Source of the DNA: a virus
Virus record (IMG/VR): IMGVR_UViG_3300044825_000644
Span: 1-31,364 of that record
DNA length: 31,364 nucleotides
Reading direction: 5' to 3' (one strand)
Part shown: positions 1 to 18,217 of the stretch, piece after piece
Layout: every line of letters begins with the position of its first letter
How positions within the stretch are numbered: the first letter of the stretch is position 1
Program-made: the position numbers and the translations under genes
The notes under the pieces: generated by a model
Told to the model about the DNA's origin: nothing
Database searches by the model: none
What the model saw: the letters and a program-made list of their open reading frames with translations, nothing else

Positions 1-43
1 CTTCATCAAATTCTATTTCACATTCTATCTTAATTTTTGCCAT
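1..43 (-). CDS. Partial hypothetical protein, N-terminus only
   Basis: An ATG at 41-43 on the minus strand opens a frame reading MAKIKIECEIEFDE that runs off the left edge. It follows the stop of the 73-aa gene by 11 bases, with an A/T-rich spacer like those ahead of its neighbours. Its first eight to nine residues are identical to the 18-codon frame at 31235-31291, after which the two diverge. This may be the intact version of a gene that is cut short at the other end, or a strain variant. Function unknown. Confidence 0.45.
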   Translation of the reverse strand, partial: MAKIKIECEIEFDE

Positions 44-116
44 CTTATTCTAATTTAAAGGTTAATTATTTCTTGTCTAACTTCTTGATAATATTCAATG
101 GCATTAAAAGTTGTAT
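18..116. repeat. Left copy of 99-bp terminal direct repeat
   Basis: These 99 bases are identical to 31266-31364. They span the end of the 73-aa gene (55-276) and the start of the next short gene. The match stops abruptly at base 18: bases 1-17 differ from 31249-31265. A 99-base exact overlap is what a de Bruijn assembler leaves on a circular genome, so circularity or terminal redundancy is the likely meaning. Confidence 0.95.
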
Positions 117-276
117 AAAATACATTACCATTAGTTAATGTGCCAAATGACTTCAAAATTTCATCAACTAAAATCAATGCACATTGCTTGGCATTTCTAA
201 ATTCAACAGTATCTTTTCTCCATTGGTGTTGATACATTTTATCAACTAATTCTTTTGCTTTTTCTTTCGGTGTCAT
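55..276 (-). CDS. Small hypothetical protein, MTPKEKA family, copy 1
   Basis: This is a 73-aa protein starting at the ATG at 274-276. That start sits just after the stop of the upstream gene (278-280), and the in-frame ATG further up lies inside that gene. It shares its opening MTPKEKA(K/Q)EL and a central ALI(L/A)VDEIL with the 89-aa protein at 2984-3253, and both end in a similar FY...EV(R/K)xEI tail, so the two are paralogues. No catalytic motif is visible. Such short accessory proteins are common in phages of Bacteroidota, where roles are unknown. Its 3' end is duplicated at the right edge of the window. Confidence 0.75.
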   Translation of the reverse strand: MTPKEKAKELVDKMYQHQWRKDTVEFRNAKQCALILVDEILKSFGTLTNGNVFYTTFNAIEYYQEVRQEIINL

Positions 277-277
277 T

Positions 278-508
278 CTATTCTGATTTAAAGGTTTCTT
301 CCCAGTATTCTTCAAATTTAAAAAAATTTTCCTCGGCAATACCTTTGCCTTCAAATCTACCTGCTTGATGTGCTACATCCCAAGTTTCTTGATGTTTCCC
401 CTTCTCCATCTCTTTGGCTTGTTCAATTATTTGGTCAAAGGTCATATTTTCATACCAATATTCATTGCACATTAATTTCTCTTTAATATAATCTACTGCT
501 GTTTTCAT
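278..508 (-). CDS. Small hypothetical protein, AKEMEK family, copy 1
   Basis: This 76-aa protein starts at the ATG at 506-508. A longer frame reaches 535, but MKTAVDYIKEKL is the start that matches its relatives. It shares the pattern MK(Q)TAV near the start, (Q)AKEMEK in the middle and ETFKSE at the C-terminus with the 68-aa protein at 685-891. The shared ETFKSE-stop-ATG junction is also conserved in DNA. It overlaps the preceding coiled-coil gene by 26 bases. Function unknown; probably an early accessory protein. Confidence 0.75.
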   Translation of the reverse strand: MKTAVDYIKEKLMCNEYWYENMTFDQIIEQAKEMEKGKHQETWDVAHQAGRFEGKGIAEENFFKFEEYWEETFKSE

Positions 509-683
509 ATTCTTCAAGTTTTTTTTGTAATTCAAATTTTTCCAATGCTAAATAATCATATTTTCTTGACTTCTTTGCAAAGCGTTGTGTTTGCCAGCCA
601 TCAGTTTGAACACTGTAATTCCTTACTTTTTCTAACTCTTTCTCTATTGTCTGTAATCGCTTTTTAATTTTCTGTATTTCCAT
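483..683 (-). CDS. Small coiled-coil hypothetical protein
   Basis: This 66-aa protein is rich in K, E, L and Q, with heptad-like spacing in residues 1-22 and 45-60, so it is probably helical or coiled coil. A short non-helical stretch (about residues 22-40) contains W, Q and R. It lies between the two AKEMEK-family paralogues, one base after the upstream stop and overlapping the next gene by 26 bases. No family recognised. Confidence 0.7.
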   Translation of the reverse strand: MEIQKIKKRLQTIEKELEKVRNYSVQTDGWQTQRFAKKSRKYDYLALEKFELQKKLEEYENSSRLY

Positions 684-684
684 T

Positions 685-891
685 CTATTCTGATTTAAAT
701 GTTTCGTTGTAGTATTGTTCTGCTGTTCTATTGTCAGTATACGTTAATACTCCATCAATTTTTGCTCTTACATTCCAAGCTTCAATTATCTGCTCTTTCT
801 CCATTTCTTTGGCTTGTTTGATAGCTTCTCTTGCAGGCATTGTGCTATCAGTTATCTGCTCAACCAACCACTCTACTGCTGTTTGTTTCAT
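685..891 (-). CDS. Small hypothetical protein, AKEMEK family, copy 2
   Basis: This is a 68-aa paralogue of the 76-aa protein at 278-508. It begins MKQTAVEWLVEQ, carries AIKQAKEMEKEQ near residue 27 and ends YYNETFKSE. Its start overlaps the stop of the upstream gene as ATGA. The upstream gene also begins MKQTALEW, so the N-terminal segment has been shared among genes that otherwise differ. This kind of protein is frequent in phages of Bacteroidota, with no known function. Confidence 0.75.
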   Translation of the reverse strand: MKQTAVEWLVEQITDSTMPAREAIKQAKEMEKEQIIEAWNVRAKIDGVLTYTDNRTAEQYYNETFKSE

Positions 892-1157
892 TGTTCTTGT
901 TGTTTAATAAATCTAAATCGACCATGTGTTTTATTGCCTTCTTGATTTGCTTTATTTGTTGATTCTATTTGATACATAGAATTATCTTGTTGATGATATT
1001 CAATAACATTTTTTACCCAAGGCATCCCAATTGAAATGTGGTATCCATAAAAGTGTATGGTTAAAGCGTTTGCTCCTCTTGATTTCCAAATATTTTTAAA
1101 CCAATCTCTTTTTTCAATCTGTATCCAAAATACCCATTCTAGTGCTGTCTGTTTCAT
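888..1157 (-). CDS. Hypothetical protein with shared MKQTALEW leader
   Basis: This 89-aa protein has a first eight residues that nearly match the next gene (MKQTAVEW), but the rest is unrelated and aromatic-rich (W, Y, H). The stop overlaps the next start (888-891). The C-terminus is polar (GRFRFIKQQEQ). Upstream is a 100-base gap holding an attC-like hairpin. Function not recognised. Confidence 0.65.
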   Translation of the reverse strand: MKQTALEWVFWIQIEKRDWFKNIWKSRGANALTIHFYGYHISIGMPWVKNVIEYHQQDNSMYQIESTNKANQEGNKTHGRFRFIKQQEQ

Positions 1158-1200
1158 AGTATTTTTATTTAATTTTAATAATTTACGCCATTAAAACGGC

Positions 1201-1252
1201 GGTTAACAGTTAGCAGGTGCAGTTTCAATTGCACTTGCTTTTGTGTTAGCAG
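1201..1252. repeat. attC-like hairpin S1
   Basis: GGTTAAC (1201-1207) and GTTAGCAG (1245-1252) flank a strong inverted repeat: GCAGGTGCA (1213-1221) and TGCACTTGC (1230-1238), with an 8-base loop. The outer elements pair with each other except for one G-T. Core sites in the style of GTTRRRY/RYYYAAC flanking a hairpin resemble integron attC sites. It fills the gap between two small genes. Its identity as a recombination site is inferred. Confidence 0.45.
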
Positions 1253-1260
1253 TAATGCCA

Positions 1261-1494
1261 TCAAAACGTAATCAATGGTACTGTAAATGTCGTAACCTTG
1301 CCACAAGAAGGGCAGGTATATTCATAAGTTCCTGCTGTTAAATAAATGTGCATCGGTGGGTTATGGTCAGGATGTAGGCAAGGTTGCTCTGCATCTTTAA
1401 TTTTACGAAGTCCACCTTTGGCACTACTGCTAACATTGTGTAAATTCAATGCCTGTGCAGTGCTTTGTTGATAATTTTCTACTTGATTTTTCAT
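1261..1494 (-). CDS. Small zinc-ribbon-like protein
   Basis: This 77-aa protein has a C-terminal metal-binding pattern: CLHPDH near residues 39-44, then YTCPSCGK near residues 59-66. The CxxC knuckle plus the upstream Cys/His pair suggests one zinc site. The N-terminal 30 residues are polar and low complexity. It could bind nucleic acid or protein. It is flanked on both sides by inverted-repeat elements, as if carried in a cassette; its TGA stop lies 8 bases before the GCTAAC core of S1. Confidence 0.65.
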   Translation of the reverse strand: MKNQVENYQQSTAQALNLHNVSSSAKGGLRKIKDAEQPCLHPDHNPPMHIYLTAGTYEYTCPSCGKVTTFTVPLITF

Positions 1495-1526
1495 TTTATT
1501 TTTAATTTAAAGTTTATACTAATTTT

Positions 1527-1560
1527 ACGGCACTGAAATTTACACAAGTACCGTTAGCTG
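1527..1560. repeat. attC-like hairpin S2
   Basis: ACGGCACT (1527-1534) and AGTACCGT (1547-1554) form an 8-base inverted repeat with one mismatch and a 12-base loop. They run straight into GTTAGCTG (1553-1560). The stop codon TAA of the 88-aa gene is part of the complementary GCTAAC. The structure is shorter than a classical attC and lacks a clear second core, so it may instead be a degenerate element or an mRNA 3' hairpin. Confidence 0.35.
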
Positions 1561-1820
1561 TCAGTTTGCCCACACTTATGACATTCATAATGCAAAAACT
1601 CACTTTCCCTTCCATACCTCGGTTCTGTAAATTCATGCTGGCAAACCGAACCGCTAACAGCGGCCTGCCGAAATTGTTCTGCATACTCTTCCATTGCGGC
1701 AGTTACAAATTCAATGGTCGGATCCCCGGCCATTTTAAAATCCTTAACCCAGTTTTCTTCAGGGTACTTTTTAACGGCCTCCTGAAAGTGCCTTTCAAGT
1801 ATTTCTATTGGTGTTTTCAT
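1554..1820 (-). CDS. Small Cys-rich protein containing a palindrome-derived segment
   Basis: This 88-aa protein has a helical N-terminus (MKTPIEILERHFQ, about 1-50), followed by a zinc-ribbon-like C-terminus: C60 region, YECHKCGQ near the end. The stretch FRQAAVSGSV around residues 50-59 is encoded by one arm of a 13-base inverted repeat (1660-1672). Its partner (1844-1856) lies just upstream of the gene. This suggests part of the protein came from a mobile palindromic element. The TAA stop coincides with the GCTAAC core of the next element. Function unknown. Confidence 0.65.
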   Translation of the reverse strand: MKTPIEILERHFQEAVKKYPEENWVKDFKMAGDPTIEFVTAAMEEYAEQFRQAAVSGSVCQHEFTEPRYGRESEFLHYECHKCGQTDS

Positions 1821-1870
1821 CTTTCGTAAATTTCTGGTTCAACTTCGGCAGGCCGCAGCACGTTATAGGT
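1651..1870. repeat. Long-range inverted repeat with attC-like cores, S3
   Basis: CCGCTAAC (1651-1658) is followed by GCGGCCTGCCGAA (1660-1672). The exact reverse complement TTCGGCAGGCCGC (1844-1856) is followed by GTTATAGGT (1862-1870). The arms are GC-rich in an AT-rich region and 171 bases apart, enclosing most of the 88-aa gene. The core GTTAGC of S2 is complementary to GCTAAC here, as expected if S2-S3 bounded one cassette. The long spacer is larger than usual for attC, so this could instead be two separate half-elements. Confidence 0.45.
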
Positions 1871-2021
1871 AATAAAATTTGCTAAGTACCCAACATCCTG
1901 TAATTATGATACAACTTACTATTACAGTTCCTATTCCTATCCATACCAAGTATCTGTTGGTTACATAAGGTTCATACCATTCACCACCTTCTCCTTTATC
2001 AAGCCATTCTTTTAATTTCAT
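1863..2021 (-). CDS. Small single-pass membrane protein
   Basis: This 52-aa protein reads from the ATG at 2019-2021 to a TAA at 1863-1865. The first 23 residues are polar and acidic (MKLKEWLDKGEGGEW...), followed by a hydrophobic segment (about residues 25-47, WIGIGTVIVSCIIITGCWVL) that should span the membrane. The TAA stop is part of the GTTATAGGT core site. The gene lies wholly between the matching cores GTTATAGGT (1862) and ACCTATAAC (2038), the layout of a gene cassette. Function unknown. Confidence 0.6.
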   Translation of the reverse strand: MKLKEWLDKGEGGEWYEPYVTNRYLVWIGIGTVIVSCIIITGCWVLSKFYYL

Positions 2022-2037
2022 ATCACAAATTTTACAT

Positions 2038-2137
2038 ACCTATAACAAAGTGTATAAGTAATGTGGCTAAATAAGTTTATCTATAAGTTGAAAATATGTG
2101 TAAAGCCACACTACTCATACACCCAACCGTTAGTGGC
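2038..2137. repeat. attC-like element S4, best preserved
   Basis: Within 100 bases, in order, are ACCTATAAC (2038-2046), an 18-base arm (2051-2068), a 35-base spacer, the inverted arm (2104-2121) and GTTAGTGGC (2129-2137). The arms match at 16 of 18 positions, and on the minus strand both mismatches become G-T pairs. ACCTATAAC is the exact complement of GTTATAGGT at 1862-1870, the relationship a cassette's inverse core has to its leading core. Size and order fit a typical attC site. No integron integrase gene is present in the window. Confidence 0.5.
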
Positions 2138-2141
2138 AAGG

Positions 2142-2300
2142 CTAAATGTCCTCACCACGTTTCAATCTCTTAATTTTATGTTGTAATTCTTTGATAGTTA
2201 CGATGTGAAGTTGTGAATTAACCCTTTCAAATCGTTCTTTAACTTCTTGAGATTTCCACTCTTTCAGTTCTTTTTTCAGTCTTTTAATTTCTTCTGTCAT
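2142..2300 (-). CDS. Small coiled-coil hypothetical protein
   Basis: This 52-aa highly charged protein (start ATG 2298-2300, stop TAG 2142-2144) is almost wholly K, E, R, L, I and Q. It is predicted to form one or two amphipathic helices. It ends 5 bases before the attC-like element S4. The codon pattern and unbroken frame support a gene, but such composition carries little functional information. Confidence 0.55.
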   Translation of the reverse strand: MTEEIKRLKKELKEWKSQEVKERFERVNSQLHIVTIKELQHKIKRLKRGEDI

Positions 2301-2367
2301 TTACTTTATTTTTTATTTTCTCTTCTATATAATTATACAATATATCTCTAGCTAATTCTTTATTCAT
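2284..2367 (-). CDS. Possible 27-aa peptide coupled to the exonuclease gene
   Basis: The ATG (2365-2367) overlaps the TGA stop of the YqaJ-type gene as ATGA, the coupling used throughout this genome. The 27 codons (MNKELARDILYNYIEEK...) end inside the start of the next gene. It would be a charged helix. Its small size means it could be chance. Confidence 0.3.
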   Translation of the reverse strand: MNKELARDILYNYIEEKIKNKVNDRRN

Positions 2368-2987
2368 TTGCTTTCAAGTTGATTATATACCTCCTCATAA
2401 AACAAGCTCGCAGCCAGTAGCTTCTCCTGCATCCTTATCTCTATCTCTGCATCACGCTCAAAAGTAATGGAGGTAATTCTCTTGGCAGGGTCAATGTGGT
2501 CCACCTCATGGATATCAATGGGGTCATACTGACTAAGGATCTCGGGATGAGTTGATACCATCACATAGCATAGCTCAAAGATAGGCCTATCATATAGCCA
2601 CATATAGGCTCTGCCCTGCCATTCATACTCAGATAGATCCTTCAGCTCAAAAGTGGTAGCAGGGAAGGTCTCAAGGGACCATGAGCTCTTAATATCAATG
2701 ATGCTATCCTCCGTAATGATATCACAGCATCCTGTCAAATACTCATTTTCTGCCCTCTGCTCGTTTTTAACGTAGTTTTGGAACCTTACCCCATTGAGTA
2801 GGTCAATCGAGTCCTGTTCCTGCTCTAATCCCTTCAATACGTACTTATTCATGAGCTGAGTACGGTATCCATAGAAGTCCTGTTTAGCCTGCTCAATGAT
2901 ATACGTCTTAGCAGTCTGCCCTAATGCCTCCCCCTTAGTCCTGGAGGAGGTCATTAACTTACCTAATGATGATGCTCTGAACTTCAT
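2364..2987 (-). CDS. YqaJ-type PD-(D/E)XK exonuclease
   Basis: This 207-aa protein is likely an alkaline 5'-3' exonuclease that resects double-stranded DNA ends and hands the strand to the annealing protein encoded two genes upstream (ERF). Motifs visible are the N-terminal RASSLGKLM, a conserved acidic pair GLEQE (residues 53-57), GCCD (D89), IDIK (D98, K100) forming the PD-(D/E)XK core, then a Q-x-x-x-Y-like helix (EWQGRAYMWLY, about 142-152). This is the pattern of lambda-exonuclease-like YqaJ proteins. The start overlaps the upstream stop by 4 bases. The family assignment is from motifs and context. Confidence 0.8.
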   Translation of the reverse strand: MKFRASSLGKLMTSSRTKGEALGQTAKTYIIEQAKQDFYGYRTQLMNKYVLKGLEQEQDSIDLLNGVRFQNYVKNEQRAENEYLTGCCDIITEDSIIDIKSSWSLETFPATTFELKDLSEYEWQGRAYMWLYDRPIFELCYVMVSTHPEILSQYDPIDIHEVDHIDPAKRITSITFERDAEIEIRMQEKLLAASLFYEEVYNQLESK

Positions 2988-3253
2988 AATTTTTTTATTT
3001 CGAGTTTAACTTCTATATAAAAACCATTTAACCAAATTAAAGTATCCTGCCAATCTGTCCAATATAATATCTCATCAACTGCAATAAGTGCCGATTGTTT
3101 AGCCAATTCATGCCAATATATTAAAACATCATCTCCTAGCTCATCGTTTAATTTTTCCGCTTTTAATACTGTTTCTTCGCTACTCCATTCAATGGATTTT
3201 GCAACAGCAAAATACTTATTAAATAATTCTTGTGCTTTTTCTTTTGGTGTCAT
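2984..3253 (-). CDS. Small hypothetical protein, MTPKEKA family, copy 2
   Basis: This 89-aa protein sits between the ERF and exonuclease genes, overlapping both by 4 bases. It is a paralogue of the 73-aa protein at 55-276: same N-terminal MTPKEKAxEL, AxQxALIxVDEIL in the middle, and similar FY...EVxxEI tail. Compared with copy 1 it carries an acidic insert. Its place inside the recombination operon may mean a regulatory role, but nothing in the sequence shows it. Confidence 0.75.
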   Translation of the reverse strand: MTPKEKAQELFNKYFAVAKSIEWSSEETVLKAEKLNDELGDDVLIYWHELAKQSALIAVDEILYWTDWQDTLIWLNGFYIEVKLEIKKL

Positions 3254-3786
3254 AGCTGTGCCTCCTGCTCTTTGGTTAGTGAATAGGTAGCTTTCAAATC
3301 CTCAACGGTGTATCTACCCTCTTGGATAGCTTGAAGTGCACTGTTGAATCTGTCAGGTGTTAGGGTAGGCTTAGCCTTGGTTGCTCTGCTTGCCTCATGG
3401 CCATCATCATCCACAGCTTGTAAGGATAGGAGAGATACAAGGGTATATCTGCGGAAGTAAGTGATGGCACCGCCGAGCTTCTGTGCATCGGTGATGACAG
3501 GCAACTGCATGAATGACTCAAACCTATCACCACTTTCAATGTCCACCACTATGGTATAGACCTTATCATCCTTCACAGGCTGTATCAACAGCAGGCCATG
3601 GTCCAACAGAATAGGCTCCACCGTATCAATAATGCTGTTGATGTCGGCATAGTTACGCTTGAGGTGGGGGTTGGTAGCATTCTTAATGACCTTACCCATT
3701 GACTGCTTAGCTAAATGTAGCTTTTGGTAGATGTTTAGGCTATTAGCCTGAGGTGCTACCTCCTCTTTTTTTGCTCTTGTTGTCAT
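3250..3786 (-). CDS. erf: ERF-family single-strand annealing protein
   Basis: This 178-aa protein anneals complementary single strands in phage recombination, possibly helping genome circularisation. The conserved ERF core is visible: LNIYQKLHLAKQSM near residue 18, GLLLIQP near 64-70, and the signature GGAITYFRRYTLVSLLSL near 105-122 followed by an acidic DDDG (126-129). Length matches short ERF proteins. A promoter lies 22-50 bases upstream of its start. It is followed by a small gene and the YqaJ-type nuclease, a standard annealase-exonuclease pair. Confidence 0.88.
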   Translation of the reverse strand: MTTRAKKEEVAPQANSLNIYQKLHLAKQSMGKVIKNATNPHLKRNYADINSIIDTVEPILLDHGLLLIQPVKDDKVYTIVVDIESGDRFESFMQLPVITDAQKLGGAITYFRRYTLVSLLSLQAVDDDGHEASRATKAKPTLTPDRFNSALQAIQEGRYTVEDLKATYSLTKEQEAQL

Positions 3787-3804
3787 AAGATATAGTTTTA
3801 ATTT

Positions 3805-4257
3805 TTACAAAGATACAAAATTATTGTACCACTCAACAAATTCATCAAAATTTTTTGCGATAATATACACACCCCCTGCCCTCTCAATCATCTCCTGGTA
3901 TCTCTTCTGTGCCTCTGATTGCCTATCCTTGCCTATTTTGACCTCTATCTTAACACTTCTGCCCTTGATGGTAGCAGATATATCGGCACTTCCTGCTGTT
4001 CCGGTGCCCTTGGTCCATTGAATGCCTGCCACTGAGCCATCAGTGCGGTACCTTGTACGTGCTACACCCATGGTGTTGATGCGTTCTGCTTGGTATCCAT
4101 GCAGGTTTATCCAATCACAGATAGCTTTGGTCAGTCCATTGGCAGTTGAGTCGGTGTATTTTCTTTTCATAATGTAGTCTTGGGGGTAATGGGGACACTT
4201 CTCAAGTAGCTTCTTGATCTTGAGCTCATGCAGGGTTTTAATGTGGTCTTTGTTCAT
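3805..4257 (-). CDS. VRR-NUC-type nuclease
   Basis: This 150-aa protein has a C-terminal half (about 60-140) showing the VRR-NUC pattern: GSADIS (catalytic D near residue 93), KIEVKIGKDRQS with the ExK pair, then AQxxYxxxxxxAGGxYIIA. These small stand-alone nucleases are common in phage replication clusters and may cut branched DNA. The N-terminal 50 residues are basic and look like an added helix. It shares one base with the upstream stop (TAATG). Confidence 0.8.
   Translation of the reverse strand: MNKDHIKTLHELKIKKLLEKCPHYPQDYIMKRKYTDSTANGLTKAICDWINLHGYQAERINTMGVARTRYRTDGSVAGIQWTKGTGTAGSADISATIKGRSVKIEVKIGKDRQSEAQKRYQEMIERAGGVYIIAKNFDEFVEWYNNFVSL
3808..3839 (-). promoter_or_regulatory. Promoter for the recombination genes
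   Basis: On the minus strand TATCTTTG (3808-3815) matches the Bacteroidota -7 box TAnnTTTG. A TTG lies 18 (3834-3836) or 21 (3837-3839) bases upstream, in the -33 position. The inferred start near 3801 gives a 15-base A/T-rich leader to the ERF gene. The promoter lies at the 3' end of the VRR-NUC gene, so recombination genes could be expressed independently of the operon above. Confidence 0.6.
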
Positions 4258-4472
4258 TAGAATAGTTTAAGTTGAGCCCATTGCGGTTTATTTTCTTGAC
4301 ATACTTCACAATTGCAGGAAACATTTATAGTATCCCATTTATTTGTTTTATCATTCCATTGAATATAACTCGCACGGTGTTTAATCGCACGAATAGTAAA
4401 ATCTTTCAATTGACCATCCTCATGATAAGTTTTCACACTTTTCCAAAGATTTACATAATGTATTTTAGTCAT
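4257..4472 (-). CDS. Small hypothetical protein with CxCxxC motif
   Basis: This 71-aa protein has a β-rich N-terminus and a CNCEVC cluster near residues 53-58, suggesting a small metal site. It is coupled to both neighbours (ATGA with the lipoprotein gene, TAATG with the nuclease gene). No family recognised. Confidence 0.65.
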   Translation of the reverse strand: MTKIHYVNLWKSVKTYHEDGQLKDFTIRAIKHRASYIQWNDKTNKWDTINVSCNCEVCQENKPQWAQLKLF

Positions 4473-4693
4473 AGCTTTACTTTAGTATATGTTATCTCCT
4501 CTCCTTTCCATGCCTTAATGATGTACTCTCCAGGTGGAAGGTGGAGCTCCTCCTCTCCCAAGGTAGGAACGGTATCAGTATATCCAATCACTTGGATGTA
4601 GTCATATCCTCGGATGCTATATGCATCACATTTTTGGGTACTCTTACAGCTTAGCAGGCTGAGTAGGAGTAAGGTAAAAGTGGCGGCCTTCAT
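4469..4693 (-). CDS. Small lipoprotein
   Basis: This 74-aa protein starts MKAATFTLLLLSLLSC. A short basic N-region, a hydrophobic stretch and a Cys at residue 16 form a lipobox (LLSC), so it should be exported and lipid-anchored. The mature part is acidic and may form a small β-domain. The gene starts inside the last 50 bases of the primase-helicase gene. Phage lipoproteins expressed with early genes sometimes block superinfection, but that role is only a guess here. Confidence 0.65.
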   Translation of the reverse strand: MKAATFTLLLLSLLSCKSTQKCDAYSIRGYDYIQVIGYTDTVPTLGEEELHLPPGEYIIKAWKGEEITYTKVKL

Positions 4694-6968
4694 GGTTACG
4701 GTGTTTAGTTAATTTATATTTCATGTGAGTTGCATAGCAATCAATCCATCGAGCAAAGACTTGAGGCTTGAGGTCCTTGAAGCCATTAGTCTCTTCCTGG
4801 AATTGTTGCATGAGTCCTTTGTACCGGTGCAAGTGGGAACCATCCGCAGTGAGGGGTGTATCCTCCACGAAGTCATAGAACTCCTTGCAGGTGTTTTGAA
4901 TAAATTTCTTGATGTCACTGTTGATACCTGTGGTTTGGTACAGCCCATGCTCCAGGTAGTACTTGATATTATCAATCATGTAGTTATCGAAGTAGCTCCA
5001 TTCCTCCTGTGTCCATTGGTCGAATAGCTTGCACCCATACTCATCAATGGGGCTATGGTTAGCATTGAAGTATTGGTTGAATTCTACCTCATGCCTTCTC
5101 CTATCATGACTCCCACCTGCTCCTGCTATCACATAGTTGGTAGTGATCACTATCTTAGGACTTCTCTCATATGGGATGTAGTACTCATCCTTGTTCTTGC
5201 GGTTCACAGGGATACCCTCAGTGATCAGTGAGAACAACTGCTCAAAGTTAAAGTGCTTTTTGACATCATCGAAGGCCAAGACTTGAGTATCAGGGTTAAC
5301 CCTTGAATAGGCAAAATCATTCTTACCTGGGTTGAAGAGCTTACCATCAATCTTGACAATCTTACGGATGTGACCAAGGGCAGTGAGCATGAGACTCTTA
5401 CCACTCCCTCCATTTGGGTTATCATCTATCTCCTCATCATTGAAGATAACAGCCTTTTGGTCTGCCTTATCCTTGTAGGTGTGCAACAGGTACCCTATGG
5501 TGGTCCTCATGGACTTGATTCGGTTGGGGTCCTGTGCTGCAATCTTGTTAACGAAGTCTTGGAAGTTGTTCTCATAGGTATCCTCCACCTTAAACTCCCT
5601 CGGTATTATTTGGTCACGCCATATGTACCCATCAATATCAATGTAGCTCAGTAGCTTTACCTTGTTTTTGGTGATCACTGCCACACCATTGGTAAATGGT
5701 AGGTAACATTCATTCTTTGAGTCCTGCAGGATACGCATATCAATGCTGTCAAGCATATTAAGGTGCCCAGGTGTGAATAGTTGTGAGCTCTTAGCACAAT
5801 GGTTGTATACATCCATCAGCTCTCGCTCCATTAGATAGGTGAGTACATGGTCTTTTATCTTCTCCACTGAGCTCTCTTGGACCTTATTCTCGGTTATGTA
5901 TACGAAAATAGGGTTATTTGACCTCTCAGGGTAGTACTTAGCAAAGCCCTGCTTGTGCAACCACTGAGCATATTTGTTCGGTATGATGTTAACGGTGTTT
6001 TTTTTTACCTCCCAGAATATATCCTCCTCCTTTTGAATGGCCTTAATATCCTCCTTAGATACGCTCAGTTGCTTGCTGATATCCTCAGGAGCTATCCCTT
6101 GCTTGAGTTTATTCTTAATCCCTTGGATGGCCTCCACATCCTCGAATACTTTGAGCCCAAACTGTGCCTGCTTGTATGCATTCCTTACGGTATTGGTTAT
6201 CTCGGTAGCTCCAAAGCCTTCCTGCGTATATTGTAGTAGTGTATTCTCCGCAGTGGTGAGGGGAATAGAGTACTCACATAGGCAGCAGGCTACCTTGTAG
6301 ATGTAGTTAGCTCGGTTACCTTCCTTAAATTCACCATGGTTAAACTTCAGCACCTTCTCAATAATGCGGTTCTCATTGGTTACAATCACCTTGGGGGTAT
6401 ATTCACTTCGGTGGTATCCTGTATCCTCCACAATGCCAGTGTAGATGGCTGCAAACTCATTCAGGTAGGCATCGGGGTCATAGGACTCAAAGCATACCCT
6501 GCTGATATTCTTGTTGGAGGTATCAAAATACTCACTCTTTATGTACTGCTCATAATGGCTGAACCTCCTCCGGTGCTCTACCTTATCACACTGAGGTATC
6601 CTAATGACCACCTTGAGGCCCTTACCACTTGGTGAGGTGAAAAGCATATAGGTGTATTTATCCTCAATGAGCCTCTTTCTTTCTGCTGCCATGGTATCAG
6701 CATCGGGGTACTTGTCGAAGTCCAGGATGCACAGCCCAGAGTGCTCAACAAGGCCATCATCTTTCCGCTCACTGAAAGTACCATTGAACATGATCGCCAT
6801 GAGGGTATTCTTGAGCTCATTGTTACCCTTCCGGATGGCCTTTATCTTACTAATTAAATCAGGTGTGCCTACCTGTATCCTGTTATGCACCTCTATTGCC
6901 TTAATAGAGAAGGGTGTCTCTTTAGAATTGTAGAGACTTTTGAAAATTGAAATGTAAGGGTTATACAT
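4644..6968 (-). CDS. Primase-helicase with VirE-N and D5-like SF3 helicase domains
   Basis: This 774-aa protein is the main replication enzyme. The N-terminal BT4734/VirE-N type domain (about 1-200) includes LDFDKYPD near residue 84 and TSPSGKGLK near 114. The middle is helical. The C-terminal helicase has Walker A NGGSGKS (about 518-524), Walker B VLAFDDV near 566, sensor KIVITTNY near 610 and a basic HDRRRH following it. The start chosen is 6966-6968: it directly follows a promoter and iterons, whereas the longer frame to 7025 only translates iteron repeats. It probably unwinds and primes at the adjacent origin. Confidence 0.88.
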   Translation of the reverse strand: MYNPYISIFKSLYNSKETPFSIKAIEVHNRIQVGTPDLISKIKAIRKGNNELKNTLMAIMFNGTFSERKDDGLVEHSGLCILDFDKYPDADTMAAERKRLIEDKYTYMLFTSPSGKGLKVVIRIPQCDKVEHRRRFSHYEQYIKSEYFDTSNKNISRVCFESYDPDAYLNEFAAIYTGIVEDTGYHRSEYTPKVIVTNENRIIEKVLKFNHGEFKEGNRANYIYKVACCLCEYSIPLTTAENTLLQYTQEGFGATEITNTVRNAYKQAQFGLKVFEDVEAIQGIKNKLKQGIAPEDISKQLSVSKEDIKAIQKEEDIFWEVKKNTVNIIPNKYAQWLHKQGFAKYYPERSNNPIFVYITENKVQESSVEKIKDHVLTYLMERELMDVYNHCAKSSQLFTPGHLNMLDSIDMRILQDSKNECYLPFTNGVAVITKNKVKLLSYIDIDGYIWRDQIIPREFKVEDTYENNFQDFVNKIAAQDPNRIKSMRTTIGYLLHTYKDKADQKAVIFNDEEIDDNPNGGSGKSLMLTALGHIRKIVKIDGKLFNPGKNDFAYSRVNPDTQVLAFDDVKKHFNFEQLFSLITEGIPVNRKNKDEYYIPYERSPKIVITTNYVIAGAGGSHDRRRHEVEFNQYFNANHSPIDEYGCKLFDQWTQEEWSYFDNYMIDNIKYYLEHGLYQTTGINSDIKKFIQNTCKEFYDFVEDTPLTADGSHLHRYKGLMQQFQEETNGFKDLKPQVFARWIDCYATHMKYKLTKHRNHEGRHFYLTPTQPAKL

Positions 6969-6973
6969 GGTTA

Positions 6974-7005
6974 CAAATATATTAAAGTTTTTTATTCCGT
7001 GACAA
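6974..7005 (-). promoter_or_regulatory. Promoter of the primase-helicase gene, embedded in iterons
   Basis: TATATTTG (6974-6981, minus strand) is a perfect -7 box. A TTG at 7003-7005 lies 21 bases upstream and is part of the first iteron. Only five bases separate the -7 box from the ATG, so the transcript would have almost no leader. A protein bound to the iterons should compete with RNA polymerase, suggesting autoregulation. Confidence 0.55.
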
Positions 7006-7193
7006 CTCCGTGACAACCGTGACAACTCCGTGACAACTCAAAGGGGGTAGTTGTCACGCCTATAAGCCCCGTCAGTATTGGGTTTCTTGTGTTTCCGTGA
7101 CAACGTGACAACTCAAAGTCAACTTTTTGGGGGGTGAATATCACTGTATTAAATATATGGCTCATATGCATTTGGGTTGTCACGTCGTCACGG
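6997..7193. repeat. Iteron cluster, probable replication origin
   Basis: At least eight copies of CGTGACAAC or its complement occur in 200 bases: forward at 6997, 7008, 7017, 7028, 7095 and 7104, inverted at 7049 and 7175, plus a partial copy at 7185. The first four are spaced 9-11 bases apart, one helical turn, as for cooperative initiator binding. AT-rich DNA lies at both 6978-6996 and 7141-7160. Three more copies lie in the neighbouring DnaA-like gene. This gene-free 275-base gap (6969-7243) lies between a DnaA-like protein and the helicase. Confidence 0.75.
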
Positions 7194-7199
7194 ATGGGC

Positions 7200-7225
7200 A
7201 AAAAGAAAGGGAGCCGAAGCCCCCT
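7200..7225 (-). terminator. Rho-independent terminator after the DnaA-like gene
   Basis: Read on the minus strand, a 6-bp stem (GGGGGC/GCTCCC with one G-T) closes on a TTCG tetraloop and is followed by TTTCTTTTTT. It begins 18 bases after the stop of the 154-aa gene. It separates the upstream operon from the iteron region and the primase promoter. Confidence 0.8.
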
Positions 7226-7243
7226 AACGTATTAACCCTTATC

Positions 7244-7708
7244 CTATGACAGTGCAAATATCTCGCTTAATTGCTTACCTGTCAAGGGTTTTTCAAAATT
7301 GGTTAATAACTTTGGAGGAAAGTTTCCATTGATAGTTACCTCCACATTCTCCGTGTCAACCTCATTGTATTTTACCTTGTAGGTTGTCACGGGGTTGTCA
7401 TGGGTTGTCACGGTGAGCAGTTGAGGAACCGGGTTAATGGCTGCCAGGTACTTGTTATCGTTCACCTTCCACCACAAGTCATGCATCTTAATGCCATAGA
7501 CTATTGTGCTGTGGTTCAATCCAAGGTAGTACCCTGCAAGCTGCACTGTCATGTGCCTCCTACGTACCAGGTAATGAGCTAAGAAATACCTCTTATAGAC
7601 GTACTCTTGTTTCCTGGTCCTCCTAAGTAGGTTGAAGTCATCAATGATCTTTACTATGTCCATGTTCTGCACCTTGGATAGGTGGTATAGTTCGTCAATC
7701 ATTAACAT
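7244..7708 (-). CDS. DnaA domain IV-like DNA-binding protein, candidate replication initiator
   Basis: This 154-aa protein has residues about 40-80 matching the C-terminal DNA-binding domain of DnaA: a helix RYFLAHYLVRRRHMTVQLAGYYLG followed by the signature NHSTIVYGI (65-73; DnaA itself has DHSTV). The AAA+ domains are absent, so it would bind DNA without ATP-driven melting. The C-terminal half is unrelated and includes a region encoded by three iteron copies (7382-7413). It ends next to a terminator and the iteron cluster, which makes it the likely iteron-binding protein. An alternative start is the ATG at 7700-7702. Confidence 0.75.
   Translation of the reverse strand: MLMIDELYHLSKVQNMDIVKIIDDFNLLRRTRKQEYVYKRYFLAHYLVRRRHMTVQLAGYYLGLNHSTIVYGIKMHDLWWKVNDNKYLAAINPVPQLLTVTTHDNPVTTYKVKYNEVDTENVEVTINGNFPPKLLTNFEKPLTGKQLSEIFALS
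7382..7413. repeat. Three iterons inside the DnaA-like gene
   Basis: GGTTGTCACGG (7382-7392), GGTTGTCATGG (7393-7403) and GGTTGTCACGG (7403-7413) lie in tandem, in the same family as the iterons at 6997-7193. They encode the repeated VTT...VTT residues of the 154-aa protein. Binding here could allow looping to the main cluster or block transcription of the gene. Confidence 0.7.
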
Positions 7709-7893
7709 AGCTCTTCAATTTTGTACCCCCACTGGAGATATTGTTCTAAGGTGTCAAGCTCCTCATCTTGCTCGTCAAAGCTATTTAGTTCGTGGAGGTA
7801 TCCATTGGCATCTAAGCCCATGTAACACCATACTCCTCCCTCGGGCTGAACCGTATCAGGTAGCCACATTCTGTAGTATTTTGTGTACTTCAT
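7702..7893 (-). CDS. Small acidic hypothetical protein
   Basis: This 63-aa protein has an aromatic N-terminal half (YYRMWLPDTVQPEGGVWCYMG) and an acidic C-terminal half (DEQDEELDTLEQYLQWGY). It overlaps the start region of the DnaA-like gene and is coupled to the upstream gene by ATGA. No family recognised. Confidence 0.65.
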   Translation of the reverse strand: MKYTKYYRMWLPDTVQPEGGVWCYMGLDANGYLHELNSFDEQDEELDTLEQYLQWGYKIEELC

Positions 7894-8138
7894 TGTTCTA
7901 ATCGTTTTGGGTCATTAACTCCTTTGAACAGGTTGCTTGTGGTAGCTATCATGCCTGTTGCTTTCATAAAATCAACCTCAGCCTTAGCACTGTTAATTAC
8001 AGAGTTTGACAGGTTAGATATTGCCTGTGCTTTCTCCACTTCCGTAGCCAATTGCTCAGGTGTTAATTCATCATCATTTAATCTTTCGAGTGCTGCAAAT
8101 AGGTGGTCTCTTAGATCATTCATTCCGTTTCTTGCCAT
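7890..8138 (-). CDS. Small helical protein, common phage accessory type
   Basis: This 82-aa mostly helical protein begins MARNGMNDLRDHLFAALERLND. Residues 30-66 (VEKAQAISNLSNSVINSAKAEVDFMKATG) form a conserved-looking amphipathic helix. Proteins of this pattern occur beside HNH or regulatory genes in many phages, where their role is not established. It overlaps the HNH gene by 23 bases and the next gene by 4. Confidence 0.7.
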   Translation of the reverse strand: MARNGMNDLRDHLFAALERLNDDELTPEQLATEVEKAQAISNLSNSVINSAKAEVDFMKATGMIATTSNLFKGVNDPKRLEQ

Positions 8139-9362: not shown

Positions 9363-9534
9363 TTGGGGTTAAGTTTAATCGGGTTAATAAATCATCCATC
9401 ACTGCCCACTTGGTGGCTGCGTAGTTAGTGCCTGAGTCGTGTGGACCGAATGCATCAAGCATTTCCTGCATTTCATCCCGAAGCTCTTGCTCCATGTCAA
9501 GGATGATCATTTCCATTTCAAATTCTCGTGTCAT
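9352..9534 (-). CDS. Small acidic helical protein
   Basis: This 60-aa protein is very acidic in its first 30 residues (EFEMEMIILDMEQELRDEMQEM) with an amphipathic C-terminal helix. It lies 2 bases after the stop of the upstream gene. It could mimic nucleic acid charge, but nothing beyond composition supports that. Confidence 0.6.
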   Translation of the reverse strand: MTREFEMEMIILDMEQELRDEMQEMLDAFGPHDSGTNYAATKWAVMDDLLTRLNLTPNEK

Positions 9535-9918: not shown

Positions 9919-10695
9919 TTAAGAGATATTTTTCTTACGCTTGTAGATGTACTCCTGGTACTTAGTGAATACCAAGTGGCTTATTTTATGGTGTTTTTTG
10001 CAGTCTCTGCACCTTAGCCAATGGTGTACAGTGCCTGCAGCAGTGACTACCTTCTTGTTATGTCTTAGATTAGTGCTACCACACTCAGGACATTCATATT
10101 TTTCACCTCCATGTTGTACTGCATAGTTATGCTGTGGGGTTGCATAGCTGTTGAGCTTGCTGAATACCGCCTCAAGGACCTCCACATCCATCTTACAATA
10201 GGCTACCATCTTATCCAGGGCTTCTTGATCCTTCCTAAATACTATATCCTTCCACAAGTCAAGCCCTCCTGTATCCATTTTAGCCCCTACCTTGAGCAGT
10301 TTGGCAATGTAGTCGAGCTTGTTGCTATTAAAATTGAAGTACTTTTTAGCCCATTTAAGGGTATCAATAGTCTTAACTGTTGGCATTACATCAATGCCAT
10401 GAAATAACGCTCGTGTACGCACCCATTTAAGGTCAAATCTATCCCCATTGTGAGCCACTATCTCATCAGCTTGAGCCATTACTTTAATGAACTGCTTGAG
10501 CATTGCCTTATCACATTGGCTCTTGGACCATGTTAGGCTGTGTATCTCATCCTCACCCTCCCATTTGTAGCAGATGCAGATAATAGCACGCTCATGGATG
10601 ATATCACCCGGGTTGATTGTTAGGTTATATCCTGTACGCCAGAATATACCGACATTGAAAGATGTCTCAATGTCATAAAAAAGTCTTTTCCTCAT
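9919..10695 (-). CDS. DEDD-family 3'-5' exonuclease with C-terminal zinc ribbon
   Basis: This 258-aa protein shows the three exonuclease motifs: FYDIET (D8, E10), VAHNGDRFDLKW (D88) and YCKMDVEVLE (D170). These are the acidic ligands of the DnaQ-like RNase H fold. Residues about 200-240 form a zinc ribbon with CPECG and CRDC. No polymerase domain is attached, so it is a stand-alone nuclease, possibly for proofreading, repair or host DNA degradation. It overlaps the spanin gene by 4 bases. Confidence 0.82.
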   Translation of the reverse strand: MRKRLFYDIETSFNVGIFWRTGYNLTINPGDIIHERAIICICYKWEGEDEIHSLTWSKSQCDKAMLKQFIKVMAQADEIVAHNGDRFDLKWVRTRALFHGIDVMPTVKTIDTLKWAKKYFNFNSNKLDYIAKLLKVGAKMDTGGLDLWKDIVFRKDQEALDKMVAYCKMDVEVLEAVFSKLNSYATPQHNYAVQHGGEKYECPECGSTNLRHNKKVVTAAGTVHHWLRCRDCKKHHKISHLVFTKYQEYIYKRKKNIS

Positions 10696-17251: not shown

Positions 17252-18217
17252 TTAGTTAACTGAGTTTACGATACCGTAGGTAACAACATCCTCAACAGCT
17301 CCGTACTGAGCACCACCAACAAAACGCATGATCATACGTACATTTTGTGAACCATCGATGTCAGCCATGTCGATAACTTTAACCTCATTCAAGTCACTCA
17401 ATACAGATGTACCGAAGAATAGGTTATCTACAGTTGTAGCAATCGCAGTGTTAGCAGCCAATCCTGGAGCCCAGAATATCTCGATACCATCAATGCTCAA
17501 TGCACCTTGGTTGTACCAAGTAGTTGACAATCCACCAACACCAGGAGCAGGAGCTACGTTACCTGTTACACCTGATACAGTAGAGAACCCACCCAATGCA
17601 CGTACATAAGCCTTAGCAATGTTAGTGGATACATAGATGCGTAAACCTGGGTTACCATAAAGAGCAGCAGGGATAGCATCAACAATTTTACCTAACTCAG
17701 TAACTACGTTAAGAGCAGTAACAGTTGTACCGGTTACCTCTTGAGCAGCAGGAAGAGCAGGGTCAAGGGCAACGATAGTAGAGATACCATCGAAAGAACC
17801 TTGAGTAGCAGTAGAACCTGTCCAGAAAGCAGTCTCAATGTTAGCAGCAACACGCTCAGCTACACGAGCAATCATGAAGTCAGCAAAAGACTTAGGCAAT
17901 TCTTTGAAGTTAGAAAAACCTAACTCAGCAGCTTGCCAAGTTTGAAAGTAGTCAGCCTTACATAATTCAAGGTTAACCTGTAGGTCCTTAACAGTAATGA
18001 AACGCTCAGTAAGAGTGATGGTAGATGCATCAGTAAATGCACAAGTAGCATTTCTTACAAGGTTAGTGTCTGCTACCTTTTGTAACAATTGCTTGTAACG
18101 TACATTAGGTAATACAGTAACTCCACCCTTCTCGATGGTTGGAGCAGATAAAAGAGATGCAGCAACATACTTGCCTGCAAACTCACCAGCATAAGTGGTA
18201 GTAATCGAAGTAGCCAT
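17252..18217 (-). CDS. Major capsid protein
   Basis: This 321-aa protein has the size and composition (A/T/V-rich, few Cys) of HK97-fold capsid proteins. N-terminal helix and extended arm run from 1 to about 60, a spine-helix-like stretch FADFMIARVAERVAANIETAFWTG lies around 110-133, and a β-rich P/A domain continues to GGAQYGAVEDVVTYGIV near the end. The scaffold gene lies 6 bases upstream and the protease three genes before that. No decoration domain is visible. The protein should form the T-number shell after protease removes the scaffold. Confidence 0.82.
   Translation of the reverse strand: MATSITTTYAGEFAGKYVAASLLSAPTIEKGGVTVLPNVRYKQLLQKVADTNLVRNATCAFTDASTITLTERFITVKDLQVNLELCKADYFQTWQAAELGFSNFKELPKSFADFMIARVAERVAANIETAFWTGSTATQGSFDGISTIVALDPALPAAQEVTGTTVTALNVVTELGKIVDAIPAALYGNPGLRIYVSTNIAKAYVRALGGFSTVSGVTGNVAPAPGVGGLSTTWYNQGALSIDGIEIFWAPGLAANTAIATTVDNLFFGTSVLSDLNEVKVIDMADIDGSQNVRMIMRFVGGAQYGAVEDVVTYGIVNSVN

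Follow-up and report, generated by a model that had tools for sequence, protein, structure and literature searches.

Introduction

In classical integrons, attC sites contain unpaired spacers between their cores and the stem, and extrahelical bases mark the recombined bottom strand, which carries a G as in the cores described below (PMC2727003). Clusters of attC sites that include methyltransferase genes have been reported in phages (Qi et al., 2023; PMC9892861), and the portions of that study drawn upon here describe the use of a site of the Bacteroidota (Polaribacter) phage P12002L by the integrase IntI1 and mention 'divergent directions' in the same phage. For the Bacteroidota themselves, the available text of the IntegronFinder 2.0 paper refers to one complete integron in Bacteroidetes proper, found in Salinibacter ruber M1 (PMC9024848), and two further integron papers, in the parts accessible to us, mention Bacteroidota only in lists (PMC8618304, PMC9668308). 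Here we have analyzed a viral DNA of 31,364 nucleotides, which comprises the entire IMG/VR record IMGVR_UViG_3300044825_000644 and which will be termed the window. An initial annotation of this DNA had proposed a single integron-like gene cassette and had considered phage-borne cassettes of this kind as little described, latter being at odds with the phage clusters already published. We regard it as highly probable that the window carries an array of three cassettes, which resembles a cluster of attC sites lacking integron integrases (CALIN), contains no integrase of its own and belongs to an integron-like system that occurs in Bacteroidota and in phages infecting them.

A non-random cassette array in the window

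Potential sites were located with a detector whose pattern is a hairpin (stem arm, loop and partner arm) that is preceded by a TAAC core and followed by a GTTA core, with a short spacer on either side. In the window, it identifies three sites on the minus strand between positions 2136 and 1427 and one isolated match near 17430, with none on the plus strand. Dinucleotide shuffles yield on average 0.2 sites per window at a score of 10 with both strands included (60 shuffles), and at a score of 11, none of 1500 shuffles contained a same-strand pair of sites within 1 kb, compared to three such sites in the window. The window holds a real, non-random phage cassette array. The isolated match (17277–17430) is located inside a coding region and probably reflects chance.

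The array covers positions 2136–1200 of the minus strand, to which all features described in this section belong, and contains four attC-like hairpins and three cassettes with complementary end cores. In minus-strand order, site 1 is followed by a gene encoding 52 residues, site 2 by a gene of 88 residues, site 3 by a gene of 77 residues and site 4 by a phage open reading frame (ORF). Site 4 scores below the detector limit in the window and was recognized by its module, which recurs in other viral contigs. The cassette that had been noticed initially is present, but instead of standing alone it is one of three in a row. Its cores GTTATAGGT (1862–1870), ACCTATAAC (2038–2046) and GTTAGTGGC (2129–2137), the ORF with its TAA stop in the core and the hairpin after the second core were found at the positions given, and its proposed integron-type organization, with boundaries at 1863–2129 and self-complementary ends, was borne out.

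Site 1 (2039–2136) is composed of the core CCACTAAC, a spacer, a stem of about 20 bp, another spacer and the core GTTATAGG, with hairpin arms at 2050–2068 and 2104–2122 that encompass 19 nt each and are 89% complementary. Site 2 (1651–1869) consists of the core CCTATAAC, 5 nt, the arms GCGGCCTGCCGAAGTTG and CAATTTCGGCAGGCCGC, a single T and the core GTTAGCGG, and site 3 (1427–1560) extends from the core CAGCTAAC to the core GTTAGCAG; the loops of both contain the start of the following gene. In these three sites, a spacer of 4–5 nt is found 3' of the TAAC core and a spacer of 1 nt 5' of the GTTA core. Site 4 (1200–1252), with spacers of 5 and 4 nt as judged by eye, opens a conserved module with an AT-rich stretch that reaches to about position 1155. 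When sites 1, 3 and 4 were folded as single-stranded DNA, z-scores of –3.6 and –2.8 were obtained for sites 1 and 3, with the minus strand being more stable in both; site 4 folds better on the plus strand. The complementarity between the start and the end of a cassette amounts to 10 nt in the first and third cassettes (A and C) and to only 6 nt in the second (B).

Cassette A (1866–2132) would comprise the hairpin of site 1 and the 52-residue gene (1863–2021), assuming a cut at the TAAC cores that is uncertain by a few nucleotides and whose side was deduced from breakpoints in viral contigs, bacterial alignments and phage isolates. The designation of its product as a membrane protein relies on inspection by eye, which reveals one hydrophobic stretch. 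The gene of cassette B (1554–1820) starts in the hairpin loop and continues in frame through stem and core, where it encodes A-V-S-G, to a stop in the next core. Its product shows a cysteine pattern that by eye resembles a zinc ribbon and has no match among Pfam or PHROG profiles. The gene of cassette C (1261–1494), which equally starts in a loop and runs stop-free through stem and core, matches phrog_28447 (E 7e-7). The list of ORFs further contains a 52-residue frame before the array (2142–2300) and an 89-residue frame after it (888–1157).

Concerning the origin of the window, the genes for exonuclease, ERF and terminase have matches among phage families, and a BT4734-like domain is present in the primase; its host is probably a member of the Bacteroidota. 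At the DNA level, positions 1–8000 show no similarity to phage records, and one cassette protein that was searched in such records did not return a match.

Gene orientation and start codons in viral cassettes

The same plan is found in about 200 viral cassettes and in chromosomes of Bacteroidota. A pattern derived from viral sites, TAACGKTTNNNGGCTTTGCG, was run on viral contigs and bacterial genomes. It matches at least 120 stretches of viral contigs, with 258 sites in 96 loci among the matches listed, and at least 118 stretches of bacterial genomes, of which 106 carry Bacteroidota titles among the matches listed. The first 80 of these bacterial loci contain 112 detector sites in 55 loci. The 118 listed bacterial loci contain 155 distinct sites, 108 of them 124–128 nt long and 103 with spacers of 5 and 1 nt.

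Viral and bacterial cassettes differ in the direction of their genes. After deduplication of sites and cassettes by sequence and exclusion of cassettes lacking an 8-nt core match, the gene runs along the polarity of the site in 183 of 191 distinct viral cassettes, compared to 4 of 116 bacterial ones processed with the same code. An earlier viral set had given 16 of 16. In the segments between neighboring bacterial sites, the longest ORF runs against site polarity in 58 of 62 and along it in four (p = 3e-43 for the viral 183/191 versus the bacterial 4/62, with cassettes that are not fully independent). Since phage genes run with the polarity of the site, the hairpin precedes the gene in phages, whereas the opposite direction in bacteria places the hairpin behind the gene, which is the order of ordinary integrons. 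The genes of the window are flipped relative to bacterial cassettes and in this respect do not follow the conventional direction. An arrangement where the bacterial array would converge on the integrase was dropped after the count of the 62 inter-site segments. Apart from these counts, the contig L155, which is labeled as Proteobacteria metagenome-assembled genome (AWTP1-29), contains a phage-like sense cassette and is perhaps a mis-binned phage.

In viral cassettes with an ORF of at least 45 residues, to which this count was restricted, the start codon is located inside the hairpin in 82 of 224 distinct cases. In these 82, the core is read in phase 0 in 53, in phase 2 in 23 and in phase 1 in 6 cases, compared to 47, 54 and 36 for the same phases among the 137 ORFs beginning downstream of the core, and the TAA of the closing core serves as stop codon in 29 of the 82 versus 19 of the 137. 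A leader ending in PFCQTRV is shared by five cassettes, which combine it with four different bodies. Among the relatives of one cassette protein, some share only its leader (L106, L107) and others only its body (L103–L105). The hairpin would in such cases lend a start codon and a short N-terminal leader, with translation continuing in the same frame across the core and into the body of the cassette. We had also considered that the start codon would be lent by the previous cassette, an idea that was dropped as the breakpoints point to the hairpin and its downstream gene as the unit.

Recombinases adjacent to the arrays

Two sets of site-bearing viral records were searched with the tyrosine recombinase profile PF00589, which matches none of the 14 records in one set and 5 of the 50 in the other. 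In three of these five (L413, L415, L416), the recombinase directly follows the array on the same strand. In L414 it is located near the contig end with no site in the fetched stretch, and L417 contains an unrelated type of recombinase. Relatives of two of the phage recombinases define 41 loci, including both query contigs, near-duplicates and the weak relatives L420 and L458. In 32 of the 41, a site is located on the same strand at a distance of less than 3 kb upstream, and the 128 sites at these loci are distributed with 127 upstream on the same strand, one upstream on the other strand and none downstream. Of the 40 loci that offer sufficient sequence, 28 contain a TAAC within the final 140 nt ahead of the recombinase that shows complementarity over at least 8 nt to the core of a site shortly upstream, and to the right of this TAAC TATTATATAT is often found ahead of the recombinase start. 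This TAAC junction is attI-like. As such arrays can end in a recombinase of this phage family, the integrase need not be host-derived. In line with the initial annotation, the enzyme for the window would have to come from outside the contig, with a host or another phage as candidate supplier.

Bacterial arrays are found close to a recombinase of their own. We inspected up to 20 kb around 38 tyrosine recombinase loci, with the duplicate locus L246 set aside, and assigned 31 loci from 30 genomes to an IntI-like family with an N-terminal extension, 6 to other tyrosine recombinases and one to a broken gene (L275). A detector site is present in the fetched stretch of 21 of the 31 IntI-like loci and in none of the 6 others (Fisher p 0.003, with grouping and tally carried out by hand after the site results were seen). 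In our own reading, the six others comprise three Xer-like enzymes (L267, L272, L273) and three short tyrosine recombinases of other types (L274, L276, L278). The array lies beyond the 3' end of the recombinase in 18 of the 21 site-bearing loci, and by the rule that bacterial genes oppose site polarity, their cassette genes would run in the direction of the recombinase; in L256, L257 and L264 the sites are found on its 5' side. In L239 (9615–10670, minus strand), the extension of the recombinase is replaced by a single-strand-binding protein domain (PF00436, E 1e-30), a fusion that is suggestive in light of a system thought to act on single-stranded DNA. The recombinases of L245 (1075–2817) and L243 (9438–10802) appear by eye to contain a repeated N-terminal extension ('RWS...WHLPDT'-like), and in the extension of L243 no Pfam family was named.

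A G follows the AAC of the core on the 5-nt side in 153 of 155 bacterial sites, partly by choice of the pattern, and in 9 of 9 viral sites, and the strand bearing this core is the more stable one in 140 of the 155 bacterial sites and the less stable one in 10. In pairs of viral sequences, breakpoints favor one side of the cut in 27 versus 0 of 122 alignments, which are not independent.

Loss and exchange of cassettes in Flavobacterium phages

Thirteen records contain a hairpin with the leader MIDRITEQPFCQTRV; they correspond to 10 Flavobacterium phages, three of which are present in two records. Among the seven that were compared, close isolates differ by the loss or exchange of cassette-sized units near cores, including methyltransferases. 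The arrays of mumin6-1 on one side and mumin6-3 and mumin6-4 on the other, which are about 99% identical, differ by exactly 506 bp. This unit contains one hypothetical gene and the preceding stretch and is located between two copies of AACGTTA at TAACG cores. Six further breakpoints, which were identified in comparison to tooticki6-1 and filifjonk9-1 and which involve methyltransferase cassettes, are located 1–20 nt from a TAAC. Concerning these phages, Nilsson et al. (2020; PMC7077304) propose that the reduced plating of some of them on one host may reflect a lacking methyltransferase, and the word integron was not found in the part of their paper available to us.

Relatives of the window

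We compared the best 80 of 297 loci with a related exonuclease. The contig L003 shares positions 1152–1846 of the window, which comprise cassettes B and C, at 98%, and site 4 is present in it a second time, ahead of a different gene; it is also the only viral contig where a search with the 88-residue protein returned a match. In the same contig, a gene that by eye is GIY-YIG nuclease-like (L003, 8190–8480) ends at the first arm of the window's site 2, with its end running into the shared region before the 88-residue gene. In L076, which shares positions 1152–1256, a phage gene (MKAKLTFNLP...) is interrupted by the array about 28 codons from its start and is found once more behind site 4 (L076, 700–1190), which gives the impression of a joint exchange of the array and the gene start. 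The site-4 pattern matches 16 stretches of viral contigs, several of them from one contig, and in the matches displayed, except for the chance match L083, the conserved module begins at TAAC and is preceded by differing cassettes. The exact pattern was not found in bacterial genomes. As a separate observation, L087 contains a short class of sites of 48 nt (9479–9534 and 10332–10387) with a recurrent CGTTTTAATG loop, and CGTTTTAATG is also found after site 4.

A model of cassette exchange and its alternatives

In the mechanism we propose for the array, the mobile unit would consist of a hairpin recombination site and the gene after it, flanked by TAAC and GTTA cores. A tyrosine recombinase acting in trans, either an IntI-like enzyme of the host or the array-capping enzyme of another phage, would cut at these sites, presumably in single-stranded DNA, and join units at the TAAC core on the side of the 5-nt spacer, so that units would be gained, lost and swapped. 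As phage genes run opposite to bacterial ones relative to site polarity, the hairpin lies at the 5' end of the gene in phages. Extending this reading, Bacteroidota phages probably carry complete integrons in mirror image, which would contain their own IntI-like recombinase without the IntI insertion, an attI-like TAAC junction immediately ahead of its start, flipped genes and recombinase, and sites that act as 5' leaders.

Several observations weigh against the proposed system. The R' cores GTTAGTGG, GTTATAGG, GTTAGCTG and GTTAGCAG share only GTTA and deviate from the GTTRRRY consensus, and the strand predicted to be more stable is so in only 6 of 9 viral sites and is less stable in 2. In bacterial pairs, the side of the cut is weakly defined, with 12 versus 8 of 706 alignments (at most 97% identity). 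As noticed initially, the window lacks an integrase, with no match of the PF00589 profile in the whole contig, and it contains no attI. In 9 of the 41 phage recombinase loci, there is no site within 3 kb upstream, with less than 1.5 kb of upstream sequence in five of the nine, and the short attI motif is not specific, since it is found at 34 of 40 positions before recombinases and at 37 of 161 after ordinary sites.

Other observations would fit a modular mosaicism without site-specific recombination, where the hairpins would serve as conserved linkers or terminators and genes would be reassorted by homologous or illegitimate recombination. The unit that is lost in mumin6-3 retains the two cores, the leader and the 3' arm, but forms a degenerate hairpin that folds weakly and escapes the detector. 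Because of this degenerate site and the 7-nt repeat at its borders, the loss may have occurred by illegitimate recombination, and since it is the cleanest cassette loss in our data, our confidence in the proposed array and in the mirror-image integrons was slightly lowered. For the six further breakpoints, TAAC occurs 46 times in the 7.2 kb containing them, and their proximity to this motif may be due to chance. In L003, the initial expectation of a clean presence or absence of cassette A in the nearest relative did not hold: the cassette is absent, but the left breakpoint (window position 1846) is located inside the stem of site 2 beside the GIY-YIG-like gene, so that its absence is not a clean excision. 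Mosaicism would also be compatible with whole hairpins that are common to different neighbors and with the failure of the PF00589 profile to match 59 of the 64 site-bearing viral records searched, many of which are fragments. Conversely, it leaves unexplained the complementarity of the ends across each gene, the constant core and spacers, the confinement of recombinases to one end and one strand of arrays and the chromosomal arrays near an IntI-like enzyme. We consider it unlikely.

An ordinary CALIN of classical cassettes moved by a true IntI would account for the attC-like architecture and would agree with the phage clusters of Qi et al. (2023) and the use of one Bacteroidota phage site by IntI1, described in the portion of their study cited above (PMC9892861). 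We find this explanation quite improbable. The integron-integrase profile TIGR02249 identifies no protein above cut-off in the 36 array-bearing bacterial genomes; many of the matches listed cover both ends of the profile with the middle missing, and the array-linked phage enzymes similarly match in two pieces below cut-off. One bacterial array recombinase contains 25 residues where IntI4 (2A3V) has 67. The 1-nt spacer on one side, the flipped phage genes and the deviating R' cores are equally left unaccounted for. Finally, hairpins of IS200/IS605- or REP-like single-strand transposons or RNA regulatory hairpins, neither with a role in gene exchange, would also fold as single strands and often reside in the 5' leader of a gene, but can hardly be the answer given that no Rfam family scored above its gathering threshold in the window and that the hairpins alternate with genes, are chained by complementary cores and adjoin recombinases.

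If Bacteroidota phages carry mirror-image integrons, interchangeable protein bodies could obtain their start codon and an N-terminal peptide from the site, and phages would shuffle methyltransferases and other accessory genes. A site that serves both in recombination and in the start of translation would represent a new route to exchangeable protein N-termini, and the exchange of cassettes is a candidate mechanism for methyltransferase turnover in phages. The integron-like system, with its own recombinases, is common in Bacteroidota and viral contigs.

Comparison with known systems

Judged from sequence, the array of the window is integron-like by anatomy and CALIN-like by layout, with at least two attC-like sites close together in a contig devoid of PF00589 matches, and it fails several of the features that define classical integrons. 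Phage clusters of attC sites are already known, whereas neither a mirrored form with leaders nor the recombinase belonging to it came up in the literature searched: with preprints and most subscription journals outside its range, the search returned no flipped phage arrays, no start codons in attC loops and no array-capping phage recombinases. In P12002L, detector sites with spacers of 4/1 and 6/3 nt flank a methylase gene on its coding strand; these are probably the sites predicted by Qi et al. (2023). In the phages H101 (first 50 kb) and TJE1, which were inspected for the geometry of classical attC sites, the detector gave one doubtful match and none, respectively, and as this geometry is not readable from these two, our comparison with classical attC sites rests on PMC2727003. 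The phage CALINs of Qi et al. (PMC9892861) share with the arrays described here the attC-type sites and the DNA methyltransferase cassettes. Unlike here, the available portions of that study contain no array-capping phage integrase family, no systematic inversion of genes and no start codons within sites.

With respect to the enzymes, the best NCBIfam profile is NF040815 ('site-specific tyrosine recombinase/integron integrase', XerA-like) for both the tested bacterial recombinases and the phage recombinases of L413–L416, yet only 3 of 5 of the former and 0 of 4 of the latter pass its cut-off. Treponema integrons contain a classical IntI in reverse orientation. The bacterial arrays appear to be similar in that the 3' end of the integrase faces the array and its gene is codirectional with the cassettes, as deduced for 18 of the 21 loci. 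Compared to chromosomal integrons in general, the system differs in a recombinase without the IntI-specific insertion, in the 1-nt spacer on one arm and in the flipped genes of phages, where the hairpin is located upstream. It resembles them in the tyrosine recombinase near an array of hairpin sites, in the self-complementary ends of its cassettes, in the G after the AAC of the presumed cut core and, for most of the bacterial sites, in the higher stability of one strand.
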